Of a stretch of 64,000 bases of DNA, positions 1,275 through 16,700 are shown piece after piece. Below the pieces are notes generated by a model, which did no database searches, was not told the origin of the DNA, and saw only the letters and a list, made by a program, of their open reading frames with translations. Numbering within the stretch: position 1 is the stretch's first letter; each line of letters begins with the position of its first letter. The stretch is taken from positions 620,001 to 684,000 of the forward strand of contig NZ_JACHIR010000002.1 in assembly GCF_014203355.1 (NCBI RefSeq), in the 5' to 3' direction. Source of the stretch: Kutzneria kofuensis. Its GTDB lineage: Bacteria > Actinomycetota > Actinomycetes > Mycobacteriales > Pseudonocardiaceae. A program made the position numbers and the translations under genes.

Positions 1275-2180
1275 TCACGGTGAGGTCCGCCGGTGGGCCC
1301 GCACGGCAATCCGCAGCAGGTCCTCGGCCGCGCCGACCAAGCGACGTCCCTTGGGCCACACCGCCCGCAGCCTGCGGTGCAGGTCCACGCCGGCCACCGG
1401 GATCTCCACCATGCGCCCCTCGGCGAGGTCGTCCCGCACGGTCACGGCGCTGAGCACCGCCGGTCCGGCGCCGGCGACGACCGCGCTGCGCATGGCGGCG
1501 TTGGCGTCCAACACCATCAGCGGCTTCGCCGGTTCGAGGCCGTCCAGCAGCCGGTCGACGGTCTCCCGTGTCCCCGATCCCGGTTCGCGCACGATCAACC
1601 GCGTTCGGGCCAGCTCGGCGAGGTCCACCGGCTGCCGCCGGCGGGCCCAGGGATGGTGCGGGGCAACGACTACGGCCAGCCGGTCGGCGGCGACCTGGCG
1701 TGAGCTCAGGCTGCGCGGCACCGTCGGCGCCTCGATGAATCCCAACCCGATCCGGCCGCCGGCGGCCAGCGCCGCCACCTGCTCGGAGTTGGTGACCTTG
1801 AGGCTGACGTAGACCTCGGGCGATTGCCGTTGCAGGGCGCCGATCCACCGCGGCACGAAGTGCTCGGCCAACGTCATGCTCGACGCGAGGGTCAGGTCGT
1901 TGGCCTGCTCCGCGCGCAGGGCGGCGACGCCGACCATCAGGGCGTCGACCTCGGCCAGCACCCGGCCCGCCCACTGGCAGACCGCCTTGCCCTCCACGGT
2001 GAGCGCGGAACCGCGGCTGCCGCGGTCCACCAGCGGCAACCCCAGTCGCCGCTCCAGCATCGCCAGCCGCTTGCTCGCCGCCGGCTGGCTGACGCCCATC
2101 CGCTCGGCGGCGCGGCCGAGGCTGCCCAGCTCGGCCACCAACGTCAGCAGCCGCAGGCTCTCCAGGTCGGGCTCGGTCAT
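1275..2180 (-). CDS. LysR-family transcriptional regulator
   Basis: LysR-type activator/repressor of 301 residues. The N-terminal winged HTH (about residues 5-65) contains GRAAERMGVSQPAASKRLAML; the remainder is a periplasmic-binding-protein-like effector domain with the NSEQVAALAAG hinge and GLGFIEAP segment. It is divergent from the DUF4331 gene starting at 2278, with 97 bases between the starts, the usual arrangement for a LysR regulator and its target. Regulation of DUF4331 is inferred from that arrangement alone. Confidence 0.9.
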   Translation of the reverse strand: MTEPDLESLRLLTLVAELGSLGRAAERMGVSQPAASKRLAMLERRLGLPLVDRGSRGSALTVEGKAVCQWAGRVLAEVDALMVGVAALRAEQANDLTLASSMTLAEHFVPRWIGALQRQSPEVYVSLKVTNSEQVAALAAGGRIGLGFIEAPTVPRSLSSRQVAADRLAVVVAPHHPWARRRQPVDLAELARTRLIVREPGSGTRETVDRLLDGLEPAKPLMVLDANAAMRSAVVAGAGPAVLSAVTVRDDLAEGRMVEIPVAGVDLHRRLRAVWPKGRRLVGAAEDLLRIAVRAHRRTSP

Positions 2181-2277
2181 AACCGCAGTTTATGACCGGT
2201 TGCCGAATCGACGGGTACCGGCCGGCCGCCGGCGCGGCCACGATCGGCGCAGGCCGAACCACCCGAGGAGTCACCCC

Positions 2278-3279
2278 ATGTCGCACCACCTGGATTCGCC
2301 GATCGCCCGCCAGGACGTCCGGTTGGACATCTCCGACGTCTACCTGTTCCGCGGCGAGCGGGGCACCGTGTTCGTGATGAACGTCGGCCATTCCCTGGCG
2401 GGTCAGGACGTGCGGGGCTTCCACCCGGAGGCGATGTACGAGTTGAAGATCGACGGCGACGGCGACGCCGTGGAGGACGTGACCTATCGCGTCACCTTCG
2501 ACTCCGACCAGCGCCTTCAACTACGTCGCATCACCGGCGCCGCCGCACCCGACCCACACGCCGCCGGCACCCTGCTCGCCGAAGGCGCCATCGAGTCCAC
2601 AGTAGACGCCGACGAAGGCGTGCGACTGTGGACCGGGAAGGCCGGCGACCCGTTCTGGATCGAGCCGGACGTCCTGCACGCCGTCGGCCACGCCTTCCAG
2701 GACGGCACCCGCATCGACCTGTCCGGCTGGGATCCCGCCAACGCCACCAATCTCTTCGCCGGGCACACCGTGTACTCCATCGTCCTGGAGCTTCCCGACC
2801 CCGTCCTGCTGCCGGTCGGCTCCCGCATCGGCTTCTGGGGCCTCACCAGCCTCGCCACCGACGCCGGCGGCTGGCGCCGGATCAACCGCGCCGGGCTGCC
2901 GATGATGCATCCGCTGTTCACCCAGTTCAACGAGGATCTGGGCAACCGCCTCAACGACGGCCGCCCCGCCGACGACCCGCAGACGTACGGCAAGGCCCTC
3001 GTGGACATGGTCGCCGGCGTCGTCGCCGCCAACGGCACCGCCCAGGATCCCCGCGCCTACGCCGAAACCGTGGTCTCGCGGCTGCTGCCCAACCTGCTCC
3101 CGTACACCGTCGGCACCCCCGCCACGTTCGGCTTCGCCGGCTGGAACGGCCGCTCCCTCACCGACAACGCCCCGGACGTGATGTTCTCCCTCGCCAGCAA
3201 CTCCCCGGTGAGCCTGGGCATCGGCCGGGAGTCCGTCACCGCCGAGCCCTCGGACATCTGGCCCTACGTGCCGCGCTAG
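2278..3279 (+). CDS. DUF4331-family protein
   Basis: 333-residue protein of the DUF4331 family (function undescribed). Family hallmarks are the N-terminal SHHLDSP…DVYLFRG…FVMNV stretch, EMYELKIDGDGDAVEDVTYRV, and the C-terminal NDGRPADDPQTYGKALVDMV region. The ATG at 2278 was chosen because GAGGAG lies 8 bases upstream and the HHLDSP motif begins immediately after it. No signal peptide is seen, although many DUF4331 proteins are exported. Divergent from LysR and overlapping the next convergent gene by 4 bases. Confidence 0.85.
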   Translation: MSHHLDSPIARQDVRLDISDVYLFRGERGTVFVMNVGHSLAGQDVRGFHPEAMYELKIDGDGDAVEDVTYRVTFDSDQRLQLRRITGAAAPDPHAAGTLLAEGAIESTVDADEGVRLWTGKAGDPFWIEPDVLHAVGHAFQDGTRIDLSGWDPANATNLFAGHTVYSIVLELPDPVLLPVGSRIGFWGLTSLATDAGGWRRINRAGLPMMHPLFTQFNEDLGNRLNDGRPADDPQTYGKALVDMVAGVVAANGTAQDPRAYAETVVSRLLPNLLPYTVGTPATFGFAGWNGRSLTDNAPDVMFSLASNSPVSLGIGRESVTAEPSDIWPYVPR

Positions 3280-3656
3280 CGGGTGAAGCCGCCGAGGTGC
3301 TCGGGCAGGACCGTGATCGGCACGTCCGGGCCCACGGATTCCCTCAGCGTGTCGAGGATCCACTGCGTCGGCTGGCCGTAGATGCGGATGTCGGTGGTGC
3401 CCTCCAGGGTTTCCCGGTACGACCGGTCCGATTTCTCGGCCAGCACGCGCAGGTGGTTCTCGAAGGAGTCGACATCGGGGTGGACCTGGACGTACTCCAC
3501 CTCGGTGCCGTCGGCACCGCGGTACTCGTGGAAGGCGAGCAGGCGGGGCTCGTTGTCCCGAATGAACTGGACCCAGCCGGGCACGCGGCGGCGCTCGTCG
3601 TCGAGCTTGCCGTCACGCACCTTGTTGCCGGCGATGAAGATTAACGGTCCGGACAT
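3276..3656 (-). CDS. Small protein, probable dimeric alpha/beta-barrel (ABM-like)
   Basis: 126-residue soluble protein, not assigned to a characterised family. The pattern of a beta strand at the start (PLIFIAGNKV), a helix (VPGWVQFIRDNEP), strands (LLAFHEYRG, EVEYVQVHPD) and a second helix (SFENHLRVLAEKS) suggests a ferredoxin-like ABM/dimeric barrel fold; this is inferred by eye. The ATG is preceded by AGGAAGG. Two perfect dyads lie 19-63 bases upstream (3675-3719), so expression is likely under a dimeric repressor. It converges on and overlaps DUF4331 by 4 bases. Confidence 0.65.
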   Translation of the reverse strand: MSGPLIFIAGNKVRDGKLDDERRRVPGWVQFIRDNEPRLLAFHEYRGADGTEVEYVQVHPDVDSFENHLRVLAEKSDRSYRETLEGTTDIRIYGQPTQWILDTLRESVGPDVPITVLPEHLGGFTR

Positions 3657-3674
3657 GTCGACCTTCCTGGTTAT

Positions 3675-3719
3675 GGGTCCACTGGACCCTTACCGAGCCA
3701 CGATAGCAGTCCAGTGGAC
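3675..3719. promoter_or_regulatory. Paired palindromic operators
   Basis: Two perfect dyads with the same core: GGGTCCACTGGACCC at 3675-3689 and GTCCAGTGGAC at 3709-3719, centres about 32 bases apart. They sit directly upstream of the leftward gene starting at 3656. The geometry suggests binding of a TetR/MarR-type dimer at two sites overlapping the promoter. The regulator is not identifiable here; no TetR gene is adjacent. Confidence 0.65.
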
Positions 3720-3777
3720 ACGTAACAAGGCGTCCCCCGATCGGTTGACGACGTGTCCGTCCTACTCGGACACCGCA

Positions 3778-3805
3778 GCCGCCGTCGCCGGCGGGCGACG
3801 GCGGC
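3778..3805. other. GC-rich hairpin in the 3657-3952 intergenic region
   Basis: A 12-bp perfect stem (GCCGCCGTCGCC / GGCGACGGCGGC) with a 4-base loop, in the space between the divergent genes starting at 3656 and 3953. No T-run follows. It could be a 5'-leader structure of the monooxygenase operon or a terminator. Apart from this and the dyads at 3675-3719, nothing else is seen in the gap. Confidence 0.45.
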
Positions 3806-3952
3806 GGCGAGGTTGCCGCACCGGCAGGTCGGTGTCGCCAGGGACCTACGACTCTGGCCGGAAGTGCCCTGGACCGCCCGGGGCCGGGGGTGGTAACGCC
3901 GCGATCCGTCGCAGCGACTTCACGCGCAACTCTTATCCACAGTGGAGGTTGC

Positions 3953-5170
3953 GTGACATCCGTTGCCGTCATCGGAGCCGGGCCGTACGGGTTGTCGATC
4001 GCCGCGTACCTGCGCGACTACGGTGTGAACACACGTGTTTTCGGTATCCCGTTGGACACGTGGCGTAGCCACATGCCCGCCGGGATGCTGCTCAAGTCCG
4101 ACGGGTTCGCCTCGAACGTGTACGGCCCCAAGGCGGTCGGCACGCTCGCGGACTACTGCCATGAGCGCGGAATCCCTTACCACGACACGGACATCCCGGT
4201 TCCGCTCCAGGTGTTCAGCGACTACGCCATCGACTTCCAGCGTCGGTTCGTGCCCGATCTCGAGGAAGTTCTGGTCACCGGCCTGACACGCAACGGAGCC
4301 GGTTTCCGGCTGAAGTTGACGGACGGTCAAGAGGTGCTCGCGGACCGTGTGGTGTGCGCGGTCGGCATCAGCCACTTCGCCGCCCTGCCGGCGAAACTCG
4401 CATGCCTGCCACCGGAACTGGTCAGCCACAGTTTCGACCACCACGACCTGACCAGGTTCGCCGGACGCCACGTCACGGTGGTCGGTGCGGGCTCGTCGGC
4501 GGTGGACACCGCGGTGCTGCTCAGCGATTCCGGCGCCACGGTGTCGCTCGTGGCCCGCAGCAACGCCGTGAAGTTCGGCGGAAAGCCCGAACCTCGCGGC
4601 ACATGGGAGATGCTGCGCAGCCCATCGTCCGGGGTCGGCCCCGGGCTGCGGAACTGGCTGTGCGAGGCGATGCCGTCACTGTTCCGCTTCCTGCCCGGGG
4701 ACCTGCGGCTGCGGCTGATCCGCACCCACCTCGGCCCGAAGTCCCCGTGGCACATGAAGGCCCGCTTCGACGCCAACGTCAGCACCCACCTCGGCCGGGA
4801 CATCGTCGGCGCGCGCGAAGTCGACGGCCGGGTGGAGCTGGACCTCGGCGGGCAGACCCTGACGACCGACCACGTCGTGGCAGCGACCGGTTACTACCCG
4901 GACCTGTCACGGCTGGAGTTCCTCGACGACGGCCTGCGGCGTGCGGTCCGCACCCACGCACGAATGCCGATGGTGTCCCGGTGGTTCGAGAGTTCGGTGG
5001 CCGGCCTGTACTTCGTCGGCCCGGCCGCGGTCGACACGTTCGGCCCGCTGATGCGATTCATGGTGGGCGCGGAGTACGTGGCGCCGCGGATCGCCCACCA
5101 CCTGGCCCAGCGGACCGGCTCCCAGGCCGCCTTCACCCGAGCGCGGCGCAGACGGTGGTTGGTCCGTTGA
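3953..5170 (+). CDS. FAD-dependent, NAD(P)H-binding monooxygenase (FMO-like)
   Basis: 405-residue flavoprotein oxidoreductase. FAD-binding Rossmann motif GAGPYG at about residues 7-12, second dinucleotide motif (VTVVGAGSSAVDTAVLL) near residue 170, and a late ATGYYPDLS segment typical of flavin monooxygenases and ornithine/lysine-hydroxylase-like enzymes. GTG 3953 was chosen: it has AGTGGAGG upstream, and the Rossmann strand starts immediately after it. The 3' end overlaps the next gene, so the two are translationally coupled, suggesting that the flavoenzyme acts on a substrate or product of the thioesterase/ATP-grasp protein. Substrate unknown. Confidence 0.88.
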   Translation: MTSVAVIGAGPYGLSIAAYLRDYGVNTRVFGIPLDTWRSHMPAGMLLKSDGFASNVYGPKAVGTLADYCHERGIPYHDTDIPVPLQVFSDYAIDFQRRFVPDLEEVLVTGLTRNGAGFRLKLTDGQEVLADRVVCAVGISHFAALPAKLACLPPELVSHSFDHHDLTRFAGRHVTVVGAGSSAVDTAVLLSDSGATVSLVARSNAVKFGGKPEPRGTWEMLRSPSSGVGPGLRNWLCEAMPSLFRFLPGDLRLRLIRTHLGPKSPWHMKARFDANVSTHLGRDIVGAREVDGRVELDLGGQTLTTDHVVAATGYYPDLSRLEFLDDGLRRAVRTHARMPMVSRWFESSVAGLYFVGPAAVDTFGPLMRFMVGAEYVAPRIAHHLAQRTGSQAAFTRARRRRWLVR

Positions 5171-7098
5171 TCGTCTACAAGGCGGGTGGGGTGCGGATCG
5201 ACCTCGTGCGCGCGGGCTCGGCGGGCACGCTCGTGCTCGTGCCGGGCCTGGAGGGCGATCCCGACGAGCTGGCCGGCGTGATCGCCGGCTACACCGGTCC
5301 GGAGTCCGTCTACTGCGCCGCGCCGATGCTGGTCGACGACGACGGCGAGGCCATCGAGACGGTCGAGCGGATGGCCGAGCTGATGGTCGCCGCCCTCGAC
5401 GAGGTGCTGGGCGGCTCCTACGATCTCGGCGGCTACTCGTTCGGTGGGCTGATCGCATGGGAGATGGCCCAGCGGCTCAAGGCCGATGGCCGAGCCCCGG
5501 CCCACGTGTTCCTGATCGAGGCGATCTACGACGAGCGGTTCTGGAGCCGCCGGCTGTGGCTGACCGCGATGCGGCGGCGGGGATTGAACCAGCTGGCGCG
5601 GATCTCGCAGTTGCCGCCGCGGCAGGCCGCCGCCGAGTTCGGCCGGCGCGGGCAGCGGCTGTTGCGGCGTTTCGCGCGGCGGTCCTCCGGCGGCGACGCG
5701 ACCTCCGTGTCCTCCGGTGAAACGGACGCCGGCCGCCGCGCATATCGGGCGATGCCCCGGTACCGGCCCGCGTACTACGACGGCGCGGTGACAGTCCTCG
5801 CCGCGACCGACAACCGGCATTTCGGTTGTGACACCGCCGAATGCTGGCAGGGCCTGGCCCGTGAGACGCGCGTGCGGCGGGTGGTCGGCGATCACCTCAC
5901 GATCGTCGGCGAACCGGACGCGGCGGCCGCGGTCGCCGACGGCATCGGGCGCGACCTGAACAGGGCCTCCGGTGTGCGGCCTTCGCCGGGCTACGAGCGG
6001 GTGCTGATCGTGTCGACCATGCGGTGGTTCTCGGCCGCGCGGCTGGCCGACGCGATGATCGAGTCCGGGTTCACGGTGTCCGTCTGCCATCCCTCCGGGC
6101 ATCCGCTCGAAGTTGTCGACGGACTGGCCGGCGATCATCAGCTGCACAAGTGGATGCCGCTGCGCTCGATCGCGCGGGCGATGCGGGCGGCGAAACCGGA
6201 CCTCGTCATGTGCGACGACGAACGGTCGCTGGTTCTGTTGCGGCGCTTGCACACTCGGCAGCCCCACGACGAAGTGCTGGCCCGGTCGCTCGGTGAGTGG
6301 ACGCGGATGATCTCCCGTGCGGGCGTCGCGGAGATCGCCCGCGACGCCGGAGTCGACGTGCCGGAAACCGCCGTGGTCACCGATCCGTCGGCGCTGCGGA
6401 GTTGGACGCCGCCCGTGGTGCTCAAGACCGACGGCAGTTCCGGTGGTCGTGGAGTCGCGGTCGTGGCCGAGCCGGCGTCGCTGGAGCGGGCCTGGCGCGA
6501 CATCTCCCGACCGCCGGCGCCGCATGTGGCCGTGAAACGGGCGCTGGTGAACCGGGAGCTGCATTCCCTCACCGCGACCGTGTTGCGCCGCCGCCCCACA
6601 GTGAACGTGCAGCAGTTCCGCGCCGGCACCGACGCCATCGCCACCGTCGCGTGCCGTGACGGCGAGGTGATTGCGTTGGTGTGCCTGGAGGTTGTTCTCG
6701 CGGAAGAGGTGCGCGGGCCGTCGGCCGTGGTGCGGGTCATCGATCACGCCGGCATGGCCGAGGCCGCCCGGCGGATCGTGCGGCGGTTCCGGCTCAGCGG
6801 CTTCTGCGGCCTCGACTTCGTCGTCGACGCGGCCGGCACCGCCTGGTTCGTCGAGCTCAACGCCCGTGTCACCCCCACCTGTCACCTGCTGTTCGACGCA
6901 CCGCGCCCGCTCGGCCAGGTCCTCGCCCTGTTCCCGTACGAGCACGGTTCGCCGGCCTACGCCGACTGCGTCGACGTTCCGGTCCGTGCCCCACGACTGG
7001 CCGAGCGTGGCCAGAAACTCCTGGCCCGGCAACAACATCCCATCCTCAGGCGGGTTCGCGGGTGGACCAGCCGCCCCCGACCCGAACTGCCCGCCTAG
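5155..7098 (+). CDS. Fusion: NRPS/PKS-type thioesterase domain + ATP-grasp ligase domain
   Basis: About 647-residue two-domain protein. Residues 1-265 form a thioesterase-like alpha/beta hydrolase with nucleophile motif GYSFGG (Ser about 95), a lid region rich in Arg, and a candidate catalytic His in GDHLTIV (about 247). Residues about 280-647 form an ATP-grasp domain: an N-terminal Rossmann-like lobe (ERVLIVSTMRWFSAARLADA), the nucleotide-binding loop VLKTDGSSGGRGVAVV (about 420) and the Mg-binding segment WFVELNARVTPTCHLL (Glu about 567, Asn about 569). ATP-grasp enzymes activate a carboxylate as acyl phosphate and join it to a nucleophile. The start is uncertain: GTG 5155 or TTG 5167; both overlap the upstream stop codon. 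Roles of the two halves in one pathway are inferred. Confidence 0.82.
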   Translation: MVGPLIVYKAGGVRIDLVRAGSAGTLVLVPGLEGDPDELAGVIAGYTGPESVYCAAPMLVDDDGEAIETVERMAELMVAALDEVLGGSYDLGGYSFGGLIAWEMAQRLKADGRAPAHVFLIEAIYDERFWSRRLWLTAMRRRGLNQLARISQLPPRQAAAEFGRRGQRLLRRFARRSSGGDATSVSSGETDAGRRAYRAMPRYRPAYYDGAVTVLAATDNRHFGCDTAECWQGLARETRVRRVVGDHLTIVGEPDAAAAVADGIGRDLNRASGVRPSPGYERVLIVSTMRWFSAARLADAMIESGFTVSVCHPSGHPLEVVDGLAGDHQLHKWMPLRSIARAMRAAKPDLVMCDDERSLVLLRRLHTRQPHDEVLARSLGEWTRMISRAGVAEIARDAGVDVPETAVVTDPSALRSWTPPVVLKTDGSSGGRGVAVVAEPASLERAWRDISRPPAPHVAVKRALVNRELHSLTATVLRRRPTVNVQQFRAGTDAIATVACRDGEVIALVCLEVVLAEEVRGPSAVVRVIDHAGMAEAARRIVRRFRLSGFCGLDFVVDAAGTAWFVELNARVTPTCHLLFDAPRPLGQVLALFPYEHGSPAYADCVDVPVRAPRLAERGQKLLARQQHPILRRVRGWTSRPRPELPA

Positions 7099-10574: not shown

Positions 10575-10593
10575 CGAGATGAGGACTTCTTCC

Positions 10594-12447
10594 ATGGTTG
10601 ACAACAACTTCCGGCGCGAGCTGGGCCAGCAGCTGCGGGTCGACTCCGTGCGCGCGGCCTGGCACGCCGGGTCCGGGCACCCGACGTCGTCGATGTCGGC
10701 CGCCGACCTGATGGCCGTGCTGCTTGACGGGCACCTGCGGCTGGACTACGACAACCCGCACGCGCCGCACAACGACCACCTGATCTTCTCCAAGGGGCAC
10801 GCGTCGCCGCTGTACTACAGCATGCTCAAGGCGGCGGGTGCGATCGACGACGCGGAATTCGCCACGTACCGGCAGTTCGGCAGCCGTCTCGAGGGCCACC
10901 CGACGCCGCGGATCCCGCCGACCGACGTCGCCACCGGCTCCCTCGGGCAGGGCCTGCCGGTCGGCGTCGGCATCGCCCTGGCCGGGAAACGGCTGGATCG
11001 GCTGCCGTACCGGGTGTGGGTGCTGTGCGGCGACTCGGAGATGGCCGAGGGATCCATGTGGGAGGCGTTCGAGCACGCCGCCCACTACGGATTGGACAAC
11101 CTGACCGCGATCGTCGACGTGAACCGGCTCGGGCAGACCACCGAGACCATGCTGGGCTGGGACGTCGAGACGTACGCCGCGCGGGCGCGGGCCTTCGGCT
11201 GGCACGCCATCACCCTGGACGGGCACGACGTCGACGCCATCGACGCCGCCTACGCCGCGGCCGAGTCGACCACCGACCGGCCGACGGTGCTGTTCGCGAA
11301 GACCAAGAAGGGCAAGGGCGTCAAGGCCGTCGAGGACCTTCCCGGCAAGCACGGCAAGCCGTTGGACGACCCCGAGGCCGCCATCGCCGAGCTCGGCGGG
11401 GTTCGCGACCTCAGCGTTTCCGTGGCCAAGCCGGACACTTCGCCTTCCGTGCACGAGTTCTCCGTCGACGGCGGCTCGCTTCCCGTGTGGGAGACCGGGG
11501 ATCACGTCGCCACCCGGCTCGCCTACGGCCAGGCGCTGGCCGCCCTCGGCTCGATGCGCGGCGACGTGGTCGCCTTGGACGGCGAGGTGTCGAATTCCAC
11601 GCACAGCGAGGAGTTCGCTCACGCCCATCCCGACCGCTACCTGGAGATGTACATCGCCGAGCAGCAGATGATCGCCGCCGCGGTCGGCGTGCAGGCCCGC
11701 GGCTGGGTTCCCTTCGCCTCCACCTTCGCGGCGTTCTTCTCCCGGGCCTACGACTTCATCCGCATGGCCGCGATTTCCTCCGCCGACCTGCGGCTGTCCG
11801 GTTCCCACGCCGGCGTCTCCATCGGCGCCGACGGCCCGTCCCAGATGGCGTTGGAGGACATGGCGTCGCTGCGGGCCGTCCACGGCAGCGCCGTGCTGCA
11901 TCCTTCCGACGCCAACCAGACCGCGAAGCTGGTCGGTGAGATGGCTTCCCGCAAGGGCATCACCTACCTGCGTACCCTGCGCGGCAAGACCCTCGTCCGC
12001 ACCACTCCCGACGAGGACGTCCACATCGGCGGTAGCCGTACTGTACGGTCCAGTTCAGACGATCGGGTGACCCTGGTCGGCTGCGGCGTCACCGTGGACG
12101 AAGCCGACAAGGCCGCCGAACTCCTGGCCGCCGAGGGCATCCAGGCCCGGGTGATCGACTGCTACTCCGTGAAGCCCATCGACGCCAGCGTGTTGACTAC
12201 CGCCGCCGGCGACACGCACGCCCTGGTCGTCGCCGAGGACCACTGGCCCGAGGGCGGTCTGGGTGATGCTGTGCTGGAGGCGTTGGCCGGCTTCGAGGAG
12301 CCCGTCGTCGTGCGGAAGCTCGCTGTGCGGGACATGCCCACGTCGGGAACGCCGGAGGAGCTGCTCCGGGCCGCCGGCATCGACGCCGAGGGCATCGCCG
12401 CAGCAGCCCGCGAGATGCTGGCTTCGCGACGGGCCGCTGTGGGTTAG
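10594..12447 (+). CDS. tkt: Transketolase
   Basis: 617-residue thiamine-diphosphate enzyme transferring two-carbon ketol units in the pentose phosphate pathway. Seen: substrate/TPP site AGSGHPTSSMSAADLM, FSKGHASPLYYSML, the TPP-Mg motif CGDSEMAEGSMWEAFEHA…VDVNRLGQ, the pyrimidine-domain Glu in YIAEQQMIAAAVGVQARGW, and a C-terminal transketolase domain (DCYSVKPID, VVAEDHWPEGGLGDA). It is of the shorter animal/actinobacterial-like type rather than the 660-residue E. coli form. ATG 10594 was preferred to the ATG at 10579 because GATGAGGA sits before it. No pentose-phosphate genes flank it, so it is probably a second, non-cbb transketolase. Confidence 0.93.
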   Translation: MVDNNFRRELGQQLRVDSVRAAWHAGSGHPTSSMSAADLMAVLLDGHLRLDYDNPHAPHNDHLIFSKGHASPLYYSMLKAAGAIDDAEFATYRQFGSRLEGHPTPRIPPTDVATGSLGQGLPVGVGIALAGKRLDRLPYRVWVLCGDSEMAEGSMWEAFEHAAHYGLDNLTAIVDVNRLGQTTETMLGWDVETYAARARAFGWHAITLDGHDVDAIDAAYAAAESTTDRPTVLFAKTKKGKGVKAVEDLPGKHGKPLDDPEAAIAELGGVRDLSVSVAKPDTSPSVHEFSVDGGSLPVWETGDHVATRLAYGQALAALGSMRGDVVALDGEVSNSTHSEEFAHAHPDRYLEMYIAEQQMIAAAVGVQARGWVPFASTFAAFFSRAYDFIRMAAISSADLRLSGSHAGVSIGADGPSQMALEDMASLRAVHGSAVLHPSDANQTAKLVGEMASRKGITYLRTLRGKTLVRTTPDEDVHIGGSRTVRSSSDDRVTLVGCGVTVDEADKAAELLAAEGIQARVIDCYSVKPIDASVLTTAAGDTHALVVAEDHWPEGGLGDAVLEALAGFEEPVVVRKLAVRDMPTSGTPEELLRAAGIDAEGIAAAAREMLASRRAAVG

Positions 12448-12511
12448 CAGCGATCGGTCAAGACCGCCCGGCATCCGTTTTTCGTGGGGGTGTTTCCTGA
12501 TACGTCAGGAC

Positions 12512-12631
12512 GCGTGGATTTTGTGTGGAGCCTCTGGACGATGGCCTACGAGGGGCAATTCCGGGGCAGGCTCCGCCTGCCCCTCGCGCGGAGAGCTTAG
12601 GCCATCGTCCACCTCCACACAAAATCCACGC
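12512..12631. repeat. 120-bp nested palindromic element, copy 1
   Basis: Three nested stems. The outer 19-bp perfect arms are GCGTGGATTTTGTGTGGAG (12512-12530) and its complement (12613-12631). The middle 12-bp arms are GGACGATGGCCT (12536-12547) and its complement (12599-12610). The apical stem is GGGGCAGG/CCTGCCCC (about 12563-12583). A 5-base bulge (CCTCT) on the left faces a 2-base bulge on the right. A second copy of equal length, in reverse orientation, lies at 14001-15550. Confidence 0.9.
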
Positions 12632-12670
12632 TTGGGTGTTCGGTGTCGATGGCGGGGTGGCGGCCGGCGC

Positions 12671-12740
12671 GATTATGCATGAAACCCTACGGTGCGCCGA
12701 CTATGCATAAAAGCCCAGGGTGCGCCGATTATCCATGAAA
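12671..12740. repeat. Three iterons, 28-bp period, upstream of HNH gene
   Basis: GATTATGCATGAAA (12671), GACTATGCATAAAA (12699) and GATTATCCATGAAA (12727) recur at exactly 28-base spacing; the first two units also share the GGTGCGCC tail. The last unit ends 53 bases before the HNH start. AT-rich cores in a GC-rich genome suggest regulator-binding iterons. There is no spacer sequence, so this is not a CRISPR array. Confidence 0.8.
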
Positions 12741-12793
12741 CAATCACCCGTTAGTGATTCGAGTTCGATCATGCGTGCGAGTATTCTGGAGAC

Positions 12794-13936
12794 ATGGAAG
12801 AACTCACCCGTAAAATGGAGAACAGGCCACCCAGCGGGGACCTGTTCGACCTGATCATGGGTGTGGACTGGGCCAGAATGGACACCGACCAGTTGGTGAC
12901 GGTGTCCATTCTCGCCCGCAAACTGAAGTCCGCCTGCGAATGGGTCGAACTGGCCGCGCTGCGCCGGACCGAGGACCCCACCGAGCTCGCCATGGCCCTC
13001 ACCGAACCGGAGCAAACCGTGGCCCGGCGCAAGGAAGCCAGCGAAGTCCTGGAGACGCTACCCCGGCTGGCCGAGCAGTTGCGGCGCGGCGAGTTGGACT
13101 TCCGCCGGCTCGACGCGGTGCGGGAGCGGGTCCGGCACCTGTCCCCCGACCTGGTGGCCGAGGTTGAGGATGCACTGGTCGAGGTCGCTGCTGGGTTGAA
13201 CCGGACCCAGCTGTGCCGCAAGACCACCGCCCTGGTCGCCCAGGCCGACCCCGACGGCTACGAGCAGCGCTGCCACAAAGCCACCAAAGACCGCCGAGTC
13301 GAGTTCTCCCCCTTGCCCGACGGCATGGCCAAACTGACCTGGATCCTGCCCGCCACCGACGCCCACCTCGTGTTCCAACAACTCTGCAAAGACGCCCGAT
13401 CCCTCCCCACCGACGACCGCACCACCGACCAGAAACGCTCCGACGCCCTGCTGGACCGCCTCCGGGGGACCAAGCGCGACTGGAACGTCCGGACCTTCGT
13501 CACCGTCTCCATGGAAACGTTGCTGGGCCTGACCAACAACCCCGGCCACCTCGCCGGCTACGGCCCCATCGCAGCCGACACCGCCCGGGAGTTGGCCATG
13601 CACGGCCCCTGGCGCGGCATCCTCCTCGACGAGTACCGCCACGCCACCGCCATCACCACCGACACCTACCGCCCCACCACGTTGATGAAGGAATTCGCCC
13701 ACGTGTCCGCCGGCGGCACCTGCACCGCCCCCGGTTGCGCCAGCCCCATCCAGGAATACGACCACATCACCCCCTGGCCGAACGGCAACACCGAACCCAC
13801 CAACCTCCAAGGCCTCTGCCGGTGGCACCACCACCGCAAACACGACAACTACACCGTCACCCGCGACCCCGACGGCACCTCACACTGGACCACCCCCACC
13901 GGCCGCCACTACACCACCCGCCCCTTCGAATACTGA
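12794..13936 (+). CDS. DUF222 / HNH endonuclease (13E12-repeat-family protein)
   Basis: 380-residue protein. Residues about 15-270 form the helical DUF222 domain (KLKSACEWVELAALRRTEDPT, RRKEASEVLETLPRLAEQLRRGEL, LVAQADPDGYEQRCHKATKDRRVEF). Residues about 305-355 form an HNH nuclease: zinc-type pair CTAPGC, catalytic DHI (EYDHITPW), NLQGLCRWHHHRKH. The C-terminal signature is GRHYTTRPFEY. The family is multicopy in actinobacteria; in M. tuberculosis it defines the REP13E12 repeats. The gene sits between two inverted palindromes with iterons upstream, suggesting a mobile or selfish unit. Full length, no visible defects. Confidence 0.93.
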   Translation: MEELTRKMENRPPSGDLFDLIMGVDWARMDTDQLVTVSILARKLKSACEWVELAALRRTEDPTELAMALTEPEQTVARRKEASEVLETLPRLAEQLRRGELDFRRLDAVRERVRHLSPDLVAEVEDALVEVAAGLNRTQLCRKTTALVAQADPDGYEQRCHKATKDRRVEFSPLPDGMAKLTWILPATDAHLVFQQLCKDARSLPTDDRTTDQKRSDALLDRLRGTKRDWNVRTFVTVSMETLLGLTNNPGHLAGYGPIAADTARELAMHGPWRGILLDEYRHATAITTDTYRPTTLMKEFAHVSAGGTCTAPGCASPIQEYDHITPWPNGNTEPTNLQGLCRWHHHRKHDNYTVTRDPDGTSHWTTPTGRHYTTRPFEY

Positions 13937-14074
13937 CCCCGGTTCTTTGACAACTCCACAGCGACCGACTACCGCCAACCCATCACCGCCACAATGCACT
14001 TGGGCCGATTTTGTGTGGAGGGGGACGACGGCATACAATTGATCCGGCTCAGGGCAGGCCCTGCCTGCCCCTAA

Positions 14075-15500
14075 TACTACAGCCGCAGGCTGTGATGTTT
14101 GCGGTGTTGCCGCTGGTAGTGGCATCGCCGGGCGTGGGTCTGATGAAGTCGCCGCCAGTCCGACCATCGATCAGTGTGCGCTCGGGGGTGCGTCGGTCGC
14201 GTCAGGATGGCCCACAAACGTCTGATCTCGTTGCACGACAACGGGATCAAACACTCGTGGCCGGCTGTGACGCCCCCTTTGCGTCGCGGTCGCGTTCAGC
14301 GGACGCGGTCACGGCCAGGAACGCGGCGGCCAGCATCGACAGCGTGACATGTCGGTACCACGCCTGATACTTGCGGACCTGGTAGTGGTCCAAGCCGGTC
14401 TCGTTCTTGGCGAACTGGAAGGTTTCCTCGACACCCCAACGACTGCCGGCGACCCGGACAAGTTCTGCCAACGGCACGGGACGGCGGGTGTGGCAGATGT
14501 AGTACGCCAACTCGTCCGGCTTGCTGATCGACCGGCGCACCACGAGAAGGTGCTCGTCCGCGCCCGGGTCCAGCAGCAGCCAGTCATACAGCCGGCGCCC
14601 CTTGCTGCCCTCACCGGCCGACAGGCGTTGCCAGCCCTTGCGCGGTGCGCTGCGAGCCAACGCATCCGCCCGCACAGCGCCTTTCGGGGTGGTGAAGCGC
14701 TGATCGCAGGAAACGGCCATGACGTAGTCGATGTCGTTGTCTTCTAGCCAGGTTCGCAGGCCGGGATTGTCGCCGTATGCCTCGTCCGCGGTGAACCAGT
14801 CGATGTCCCTTCCCGCCTCCAGCAGGCGAGCCAGCATGTGTTGGGCCAGCACGGGCTTGGTCGCGAACTCCACATCCTCGTCGATCCCGGCCTCCGCGCA
14901 GCGCTCGCGGTCGTCGGTCCAGGACGCGGGCAGGTAGAGCTCGCGGTCGATCAACGCCCGCCCCCGGGCCGACACGTAGGTCAAGAACACGCCGAGTTGG
15001 CAGTTCTCGATCCGACCGGCGGTGCCGGAGTACTGCCGTTGGACACCGGCGGATTTGGTGCCTTTCTTGAGGAATCCGGTCTCGTCGGCGACCACGACCC
15101 CGGTGGGATCAGTGATCTGGTCCAGCACGTAGTCCCGCAGGTCGTCTCGGACCGCGTCGGCGTCCCAGCGGTAGAAGTTCAGCAGGCGCTGCATGCCGTC
15201 AGGGGCCAGGTCACCGGCCTGCTCGGCGATCGTCCAGGAGTTCTTGCGCTCGGCGCCCGACAGCAAGCCCAGCAGGTACATCCTGGCCCGGTGGCGTGAG
15301 TCTGCCTGTGCGAACCGGCCTGCGACCAGCGCGAACATGTCCTCGAACCCTGCCCGCCACCGCGCCAGGCGATCGTCCGCGTTCGTCTCCGGTAGGGCCG
15401 TGAGGTCCTGCTCCATGTCCGGCACACCCAAGTCGATCACGCATCGGCGGTCTCCGTGAACACGACACGCCGACAAGTATCACACCGTGCGGCTGTAGTA
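14075..15500 (-). mobile_element. IS701-family insertion sequence, complete, 1,426 bp
   Basis: Imperfect terminal inverted repeats of about 27 bases begin TACTACAGCCGCAGGCTGTG on the left and TACTACAGCCGCACGGTGTG on the right (complement). Both ends are flanked by CTAA (14071-14074 and 15501-15504), a 4-bp target duplication fitting the YTAR preference of IS701 elements. One full-length transposase is carried on the minus strand. The insertion point is at the tip of the 120-bp palindrome. Confidence 0.93.
14247..15476 (-). CDS. IS701-family DDE transposase
   Basis: 409-residue transposase with the DDE_5/IS701 layout. First Asp in GVVVADETGFLKKGTKSAGVQRQYSGTAGR, second Asp in WFTADEAYGDNPGLR, final Glu in RWGVEETFQFAKNETGLDHYQVRKYQAWYRH. 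N-terminal segment FAQADSRHRARMYLLGLLSGAERKNSWTIAEQAG is family-typical. Length matches intact members, and no frameshift is seen, so the element may be active. The start may be the in-frame ATG at 15416 (MEQDLT) instead of 15476. Confidence 0.95.
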   Translation of the reverse strand: MSACRVHGDRRCVIDLGVPDMEQDLTALPETNADDRLARWRAGFEDMFALVAGRFAQADSRHRARMYLLGLLSGAERKNSWTIAEQAGDLAPDGMQRLLNFYRWDADAVRDDLRDYVLDQITDPTGVVVADETGFLKKGTKSAGVQRQYSGTAGRIENCQLGVFLTYVSARGRALIDRELYLPASWTDDRERCAEAGIDEDVEFATKPVLAQHMLARLLEAGRDIDWFTADEAYGDNPGLRTWLEDNDIDYVMAVSCDQRFTTPKGAVRADALARSAPRKGWQRLSAGEGSKGRRLYDWLLLDPGADEHLLVVRRSISKPDELAYYICHTRRPVPLAELVRVAGSRWGVEETFQFAKNETGLDHYQVRKYQAWYRHVTLSMLAAAFLAVTASAERDRDAKGASQPATSV

Positions 15501-15587
15501 CTAACCGCCCTGAGCGCCGTCGTCCAGAGGCTCCACACAAAATCGGCCCACCCAACACACCAAACCCCTACCCCCACAGCGTCCGAC

Positions 15588-16700
15588 TCACTTGTGCTTG
15601 CCAGGCGGCTTGCCCTTCGCCGAGTGCTTGCCGTTGTCCTTCTCCCCCGGGTCCGGCGCCGGGTCCTTCGATGACGTCGTCGGCCTCGACGCGGTCGCCA
15701 GATCGGCCGTTGTGGTCGGGGTCGTCGAAGCGGCCGGCGTCGACGTCACCGGTGGCGGCACGGCCGCCCGGACCGGGCCCGAATCCGAGTCCGGCGCTGG
15801 ACCGGTGACCGGGCCTTCCTGCAGCACGACCCCCAGCCCGAGCCCGATCGTCAGCACGCCCGCGACTCCGGCCAGCGCCGCCCGTCCCCACGATCTTCGC
15901 GGTGCGGGCACCTCGATCCCGAGTTCCTCCCAACGCCGAGCACACTCCTCGGCAGTGGGCCGCCGCCAGGGATCGAAACTGGTCATCTCCGCCAGCAACT
16001 CGGCCACCCCGGGCGGCAACCCGTCCGGGATCACCGGGTCACGCGTCAACCGCGCCAGCGCCGACTCGGTCTGCGTGCCGGGAAACTCCTGCCGGCCGGT
16101 GAAGCACTGCAGGAAAACCAGCCCCAGCGCATACACGTCCACCGCCGTGGTGGCCGTCTCGCCCCGCACCTGCTCCGGCGCCAGGAACGCCGCCGTCCCC
16201 ACGATCTCGCCCGACCGGGTCAGCCCGGCGGCGTCGATCAGCTTGGCCAGTCCGAAATCGGCGAGAAACGCCTCGCCGTCGAGGTCGACGAGGATGTTGG
16301 ACGGCTTCACGTCCCGATGGACCACGTTCCGGCTGTGCACGTACGCCAAGGTCGGCAGCAGGTGGCGGCCCAGTGCCAGCACTTCGTCGACGGTCGGCAT
16401 CTGCCGCTCCAGCGCCGCGTGCAGGCTCGGGCCGTTGACCAGCTGCATCACCAGGTAGCGGACTCCGTCGTCCTCGCCGGCCTCGTACACGGTGACCAGG
16501 CCGGGATGCCGGAGCCCGGCCAGCAGCCGCGCCTCCTCCTCGAACCGTCGCCCCTCCACGGAGCCGCCGGCGGTGAACCGCTTGATCGCCACCGGCCGTT
16601 CGAGCCGCATGTCGTACGCGCGATACACCTCCGCCATCGCGCCGCGCCCGACCAGCGCTCCCAACCGGTAACGACCGGCAAGCAACCGATCACCGCCCAT
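15588..16700 (-). CDS. Membrane-anchored serine/threonine protein kinase (PknB-like)
   Basis: 370-residue Hanks-type kinase. Gly loop GRGAMAEVY, ATP-anchoring Lys in VAIKRF, catalytic loop HRDVKPSNILVD, DFGLAK, activation segment with VGTAAFLAPEQV and DVYALGLVFLQCFTGRQEF complete the domain by about residue 262. A single transmembrane helix (about 272-292, ALAGVAGVLTIGLGLGVVL) is followed by a Pro/Thr/Ser-rich tail ending in Lys/His/Gly repeats. There are no PASTA repeats, so the extracellular part is not a muropeptide sensor of the PknB type. No phosphatase or FHA gene is adjacent. Confidence 0.93.
   Translation of the reverse strand: MGGDRLLAGRYRLGALVGRGAMAEVYRAYDMRLERPVAIKRFTAGGSVEGRRFEEEARLLAGLRHPGLVTVYEAGEDDGVRYLVMQLVNGPSLHAALERQMPTVDEVLALGRHLLPTLAYVHSRNVVHRDVKPSNILVDLDGEAFLADFGLAKLIDAAGLTRSGEIVGTAAFLAPEQVRGETATTAVDVYALGLVFLQCFTGRQEFPGTQTESALARLTRDPVIPDGLPPGVAELLAEMTSFDPWRRPTAEECARRWEELGIEVPAPRRSWGRAALAGVAGVLTIGLGLGVVLQEGPVTGPAPDSDSGPVRAAVPPPVTSTPAASTTPTTTADLATASRPTTSSKDPAPDPGEKDNGKHSAKGKPPGKHK

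Follow-up and report, generated by a model that had tools for sequence, protein, structure and literature searches.

A DUF222/HNH nuclease gene bounded by end-specific hairpins

The stretch of DNA analyzed here, referred to as the window, is a 64-kb segment of Kutzneria kofuensis (contig NZ_JACHIR010000002.1, positions 620,001 to 684,000). It contains an element in which a DUF222/HNH nuclease gene lies between two hairpins, and several copies of this element are surrounded by a strand-specific halo of cytosine mutations, which is described below. The left end hairpin (positions 12512 to 12631, plus strand; 120 nt, outer arm GCGTGGATTTTGTGTGGAG) was recognized from its sequence, repeats, predicted fold, and alignment to other copies. 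The nuclease gene (12794 to 13936, plus strand; 380 aa) was identified as an open reading frame with domain matches. The right end hairpin, on the minus strand, is split by an insertion sequence (IS). Its first part (14001 to 14074, outer arm TGGGCCG) terminates in a CTAA duplicated by the IS, and its second part (15501 to 15550) consists of the second CTAA followed by bases that end in CTCCACACAAAATCGGCCCA. The IS itself (14075 to 15500, minus strand), which is foreign to the element proper, is 1,426 bp long with CTAA on either side, as read from the sequence. Its transposase frame (14247-15476, minus strand) gave a match to DDE_5 (E value, 2.9e-50). Without the IS, the unit measures ~1.61 kb, as an earlier note on this DNA had estimated (~1.6 kb). 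In what follows, L-numbers denote individual element loci, G000 is the K. kofuensis genome studied, and G001, G002, G004, G005, and G006 are other Kutzneria genomes.

The same note had described two palindromes around the HNH gene in opposite orientation, with outer arms that differ between the palindromes and yet pair with themselves, and this description was accurate. The arms are 19 nt long in the left palindrome (GCGTGG...) and 20 nt long in the right one (TGGGCC...), each perfectly complementary to its own partner, and one middle-stem pair read from the sequence is T-A in the former and C-G in the latter. The left palindrome with a few flanking bases (146 nt), folded as DNA, reached -50.3 kcal/mol (z = -8.6), a value that none of 200 shuffles equaled. 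No Rfam match was obtained at an E value of 0.1 across positions 11500-16500. The note's proposal of compensatory changes was correct in that pairing is kept, but ordinary compensatory drift does not account for the difference between the outer arms, given that all 17 left ends in the genome have one arm type and 14 intact right ends have the other. An alignment of these 31 hairpins, which omits the right hairpins of L014 and the window (insertions) and of L022 (lost), showed GCGTGG at the left ends (once GCGCGG) and GGGCCG at the right ends (once GGACCG). Pairing of the outer arms was complete in most cases, and a few copies had a single mismatch. Because the arm type is constant for each end across the genome copies, the outer arm marks the end of the element (left or right) and not the copy. 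The 31 hairpins were used to build a covariance model (R1).

The encoded protein matched Pfam DUF222 (E value, 3.3e-19) and, at residues 304-351, a PHROG HNH family (3.1e-8); the Pfam HNH match (0.011) was under its cut-off. DUF222 and HNH were the only domains detected, and neither a transposase nor an HUH (Y1) transposase domain was found in the element gene. A search of the protein against solved structures returned nothing convincing. Between copies of one genome, the ratio of nonsynonymous to synonymous substitution rates was 0.08-0.24, and the nuclease gene is thus under purifying selection.

Two 28-nt direct repeats (82% alike; 12670 to 12725, plus strand; repeat scan D1) lie inside the element, between the left hairpin and the gene. 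The motif TATGCAT is present in both, and the repeat-bearing interval differs in length among copies.

Copies of the element in Kutzneria genomes

A BLAST search of the K. kofuensis genome (10.4 Mb) with the left hairpin yielded 63 matches, and the scored candidates (40 of 47) resolved into 17 loci, 16 of which were inverted pairs. The DUF222/HNH gene or its pieces were present at all 17. A reading of the hairpins as generic terminators or scattered single hairpins was therefore rejected for this genome; the many hairpins unlinked to DUF222/HNH genes that the note had named as its refuting case were not seen among the scored candidates. Once units with an insertion or a lost end are excluded, the remaining 14 were 1553-1790 bp long. 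The copies in this genome form two subfamilies, with identities of 84-95% and 88-94% within and 68-71% between them. The unit of the mycobacterial REP13E12 repeats is ~1.4-1.6 kb long, and the comparison of scale with REP13E12 drawn in the note applies to this DUF222 and HNH unit at its 17 loci.

When R1 was applied to 56 other loci in five Kutzneria genomes (16 in G000, the window being excluded, 14 in G006, 2 in G002, 16 in G005, and 8 in G001), both hairpins were found at 45, one at 9, and none at 2. For the 40 loci outside the genome that supplied the model, the corresponding numbers were 30, 8, and 2. By DNA search, the hairpin was detected in five of seven Kutzneria genomes and in none of 53 other genomes (at most 14 candidates scored per genome), and covariance model matches occurred in six of the seven. 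The gene is also carried by Kutzneria sp. 744 and Kutzneria sp. CA-103260. A related family in G004 (40% identity) had one hairpin, upstream of the gene, at 6 of 10 loci (L097, L098, L099, L102, L104, and L105). These hairpins, none of which was used in building the model, have a similar architecture and a different sequence. For this and the more distant family discussed below, the loci fetched (10 of 11 G004 genes and 14 loci, respectively) are a subset of all matches. A plasmid or phage origin was considered and set aside: there was no DNA match in plasmids, and protein matches (7 plasmid and 7 phage records) had 26-39% identity. Base skew near three plasmid homologues was weak or inconsistent.

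Shared sites, empty sites, and homogenization of copies

Apart from an IS and short matches (15-68 nt), the flanks of the 17 host-genome loci had nothing in common, so that there is no single insertion site. The note's view of the hairpins as the ends of a dispersed DUF222/HNH unit is supported. Movement of the unit by its HNH protein is putative, and homing in the strict sense would call for a single cognate site. Empty sites were identified for L021 in four relatives and for L084 and L087 in G000; the L013 site is occupied in relatives by other, unrelated DNA. Compared with the empty sites, filled sites had an additional ~24-190 nt next to the hairpins, and no exact target or target duplication could therefore be read. 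Of the clean empty sites that had been predicted, at least three sites are indeed empty, but their junctions differ by up to ~190 nt of extra sequence.

About four sites seem to be common to species: G000 L010 and G005 L090; G000 L011, G005 L091, and G002 L031; G000 L015 and G005 L086 (a match that rests on the left flank only); and G005 L084 and G002 L127. In a tree of 54 proteins, the copies of G005, G006, and G001 each formed one clade, and those of G000 formed two. Three shared-site pairs did not stand out among the cross pairs as especially close (ranks 90, 90, and 13 of 120). Because copies cluster by genome despite these apparently shared sites, the sequences indicate that they undergo concerted evolution or repeated replacement.

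A strand-specific halo of cytosine mutations

G/T-rich stretches adjoin the elements, on the top strand at the left and on the bottom strand at the right. Using a scan for 40-nt segments with at least 90% G/T or A/C, we found tracts within 300 nt of 34 of 46 two-ended elements; 52 had the expected polarity and none the opposite. The right flanks of L012 and L019, which start with an IS, were excluded from the flank tables. In the 64-kb window, there is a single place with a tract, an A/C-rich segment (15533 to 15578, plus strand) at the right edge of the element. There was no tract in 297 kb of control DNA (15 loci, ~20 kb each) once masked N was set aside; two apparent control tracts consisted almost entirely of masked N (885 of 906 letters in one and 156 of 177 in the other). 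Tracts were also absent from the empty sites of L021, L084, and L087.

Changes were polarized at eight sides of four sites. A base was taken as ancestral if three or more species without the element had it in common. On each side, changes were scored on the strand with its 3' end towards the element, and each element-free species served in turn as a control lineage. Within 1 kb, the element lineage had 116 C>T, 108 C>G, and 15 C>A changes at 1850 ancestral C, compared with 14 G>A, 30 G>C, and 5 G>T changes at 1849 G, 9 changes at 848 A, and 8 at 812 T. Control lineages had 55 C>T and 95 C>G changes at 6442 C. C>T and C>G together thus affected 12% of ancestral C in the element lineage and 2.3% in the control lineages (Fisher P = 3.5e-58; for C versus G, P = 2.9e-32). 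The 239 C changes were split into 49% C>T, 45% C>G, and 6% C>A (background not subtracted). Because codon degeneracy confounds it, the sequence context around mutated cytosines was set aside. The halo is strand specific and mirrored on the two sides of the element.

In a profile extended to 10 kb at three of the sites, the proportion of ancestral C with C>T or C>G was 28% at 0-100 nt (10/36), 14% at 100-200 nt, 17% at 200-400 nt, 14% at 400-700 nt, 11% at 700-1000 nt, and 7% at 1000-1500 nt. It settled at a background of ~3-4% farther out, the decay being reached by 1.5-2 kb, and G changes stayed near background. Four of the eight sides (L087 left, L087 right, L013 left, and L021 left) were singly significant against their own far DNA. 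An unpolarized comparison of 15 sides was strong also at L084 left, L084 right, and L091 left and weak or negative at L011, L009, and the right side of the window element. At the site shared by L011 and L091, the halo was strong on the G005 side and weak on the G000 side. The halo therefore seems to accumulate within lineages and not only once upon insertion.

In the window, both adjoining genes are oriented towards the element, and third-position C drops towards it in both. In the transketolase gene (10579 to 12447, plus strand), it was 0.41 over the final 80 codons versus 0.53-0.61 earlier; in the protein kinase gene (15588 to 16700, minus strand), it was 0.24-0.26 over the final 160 codons versus 0.38-0.41 earlier.

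A self-cutting element as a possible source of the halo

We give about an even chance to a reading in which the unit is a self-propagating nuclease element with end-specific hairpins, related to 13E12/REP13E12, that recurrently breaks its own locus. In this scheme, the HNH nuclease would cut its own locus, or an allele of this locus, again and again, and 5'-to-3' resection would bare, on either side, the strand with its 3' end towards the element. Cytosines in the bared strands would be deaminated, and uracil excision followed by bypass would give C>T and C>G. Repair would use a sister or ectopic copy of the element as its template, whereby the interior would be refreshed, copies homogenized, and new sites at times seeded. 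The hairpins could serve as recognition or processing ends. The mirrored strand geometry of the halo agrees with resection that starts where the element is broken.

A wider claim, to which we lend somewhat less credence and hold at a little under even, is that such loci are a bacterial form of kataegis. DUF222/HNH units would then be selfish and self-cutting, with hairpins read by the nuclease, and would turn their neighborhood into a hotspot of strand-coordinated cytosine mutation and gene conversion, rewriting the ends of neighbor genes in the course of evolution, in Kutzneria and possibly across the actinobacterial 13E12 family. Families with opposite polarity would process the break in the opposite way.

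Several observations weigh against these interpretations. Four of the eight polarized sides (L013 right, L021 right, L085 left, and L085 right) had no significant excess; differences in age or activity between single copies may lie behind such quiet sides. Beyond the halo, C>T and C>G were locally elevated at L087 right (3-4.5 kb, 35/400 C) and L085 right (2-3 kb, 21/162 C). Many G005 and G006 copies share the 90-160 nt that adjoin the right hairpin on its outer side, so that right-hand tracts are partly element sequence and are not all independent. Genes pointing at the element show more C depletion than genes pointing away. As for the nuclease itself, 4 of the 17 host-genome genes (L014, L016, L017, and L019) are frameshifted, split, or off-frame at the start, and the predicted fold is of low confidence (predicted local distance difference test score, 57.8), too poor for a structure search.

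The interior of the element is a further difficulty. Third-position C runs from poor to rich along the nuclease gene while G falls (G000, G005, and G006; least clear in G001), and this codon composition would place the center of the skew inside the gene. Singletons inside the element had no bias in the halo direction (C>G 61 versus C>T 139 in five sets), and those of G006 in the right half of the element lean the opposite way. A process centered inside the gene is hinted at by codon composition and unsupported by the singletons, and these observations are hard to reconcile in a simple scheme. If repair recopies the interior, recent interior changes would look ordinary, but the codon gradient would then need another cause.

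A DUF222/HNH family with 30% identity (L107-L115 and L093-L096) also counts against the proposal. Its pooled flank skew is opposite (left A/C-rich, right G/T-rich), independent of gene direction, and absent at some loci, and R1 found no hairpin at any of the 14 fetched loci. In view of these flank-skew data, a "3-prime tail" rule meant to cover all DUF222 families was abandoned.

Competing explanations

Transcription could instead produce the halo if the hairpins acted as strong two-way terminators or roadblocks, with RNA polymerase stalling and R-loops baring the non-template strand of genes that run into the element, so that its cytosines mutate, and with the nuclease playing no part; we regard this as unlikely. 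It accords with the third-position C of genes directed towards the element, which within 250 nt fell to 0.22-0.37 (base, 0.50-0.51), compared with 0.29-0.35 (base, 0.42-0.44) for genes directed away, and with the lack of signal at L021 right and L009 right, where genes point away. However, within 250 nt of the element, away-pointing genes are poor in C on their template strand as well (three genomes; in G006, gene ends were approximated and the effect stops at 250 nt). Moreover, the gene at L084 left points away and has 100 C-losses versus 21 C-gains (against a single empty-site genome), tracts occur on the L085 flanks although both neighbor genes point away, and L013 right is quiet although its gene points at the element.

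Slightly less credible still is an ordinary dispersed repeat, that is, an old transposon-like unit moved by a transposase in trans and homogenized by RecA gene conversion, in which the halo stems from palindrome breaks (SbcCD-like hairpin cleavage at replication). Long palindromes provoke breaks in bacteria and gene conversion is frequent among repeats, both of which speak for it, as does the lack of a transposase in the element gene. Purifying selection on the nuclease in successive copies is not what it predicts. Cuts at the hairpins only would also leave a C-rich top strand just inside the left hairpin, which was not so in G000, G005, and G006 (G001 was ambiguous), and the distant DUF222 family in which R1 found no hairpins has skewed flanks too.

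A target preference, under which the unit inserts into G/T-rich intergenic DNA at gene 3' ends and the tracts predate it, is very improbable: 8 of 15 host-genome insertions do lie between convergent genes, but the empty sites in relatives have no tracts, and the changes are derived in the filled lineage and run into coding DNA. Of the other insertions in that count, which used neighbors from a simple gene caller and omitted L012 and L019 (IS adjoining the element), six were tandem, none was clearly divergent, and L014 was uncertain; the convergent L022 has lost its right hairpin. In G005, L085 and L088 sit between divergent gene calls.

Relation to known systems and significance

Palindromic or hairpin ends around a gene and intergenic copies are features of REP/RAYT and IS200/IS605 elements. 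The Kutzneria unit resembles them in these respects and differs from them in having no HUH (Y1) transposase. It also differs from IS and DDE transposons in being without a transposase of its own, the DDE_5 gene belonging to the separate IS. With free-standing HNH homing endonuclease genes, it shares a nuclease seemingly selected for its own spread, copies that are alike within a genome, and both filled and empty sites. Unlike these genes, it occupies many unrelated intergenic sites instead of one cognate allele and has its own hairpin ends.

The REP13E12/13E12 repeats of mycobacteria are similar in that a DUF222 and HNH protein is repeated at many places. The paired end-specific hairpins and the hypermutation halo were seen in Kutzneria. 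A preprint lists REP13E12 loci among the most gene-converted in Mycobacterium tuberculosis, with 87 events, and states that they lack a defined function (PMC13061034); another article refers to Gordon et al. 1999 for the REP13E12-type repeat (PMC10589994).

The spectrum of the halo is close to that reported for kataegic clusters in yeast expressing an AID mutant, where C>T, C>G, and C>A made up 46, 47, and 7%, C>G was linked with REV1 and uracil excision, and clusters can be nucleated by a break (PMC3628087). Break-associated kataegis, as described there for yeast AID/APOBEC and tumors, likewise consists of strand-coordinated C>T and C>G changes over kilobases, with proportions of C>T, C>G, and C>A that closely match those of the halo. 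This hallmark was present in the spectrum, strand, and decay of our pooled data and, for single sides, at four of the eight polarized ones. The Kutzneria halo differs in that it occurs in bacteria and has become fixed near a single type of element in the course of evolution, with a putative break and a putative deaminase. A Mycobacterium smegmatis HNH nuclease that cuts DNA and raises the break signal is a precedent for chromosome breakage by HNH proteins (PMC9416677); the main text of that article makes no mention of DUF222 or 13E12. Among literature records on REP13E12, 13E12, DUF222/HNH, and bacterial kataegis, no title or abstract opening reports that these repeats end in hairpins or have a mutation halo. 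The protein family is already known, and the hypermutated flanks of several element copies are new.

The 13E12 repeats are a known family of actinobacteria with no defined function. These observations make their function testable, the question being whether the nuclease cuts its own locus, and they suggest a reason why such repeats can be gene-conversion hotspots. The halos offer a long-term natural archive of the processing of exposed single strands in actinobacteria. They also imply that the codon usage and divergence of a neighbor gene can be shaped by a selfish neighbor and not by selection.

Other insertions and rearrangements at element copies

In the host genome, 2 of the 17 loci (L014 and the window) have insertion-bearing right hairpins. 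That of L014 is split (positions 1725-5567) by an insertion other than the window IS, which has a transposase-like frame of 288 aa. At L032, where the model found no hairpin, a 123-nt perfect duplication (5295-5529; copy starts 112 nt apart) lies downstream of the gene. The DDE_5 IS is present inside the right hairpin of the window element and also just outside the right hairpin at L012 and L019 (CTAATACTACAGCC junction). Given its occurrence at the right hairpin of three copies, this IS may favor the surroundings of these hairpins.

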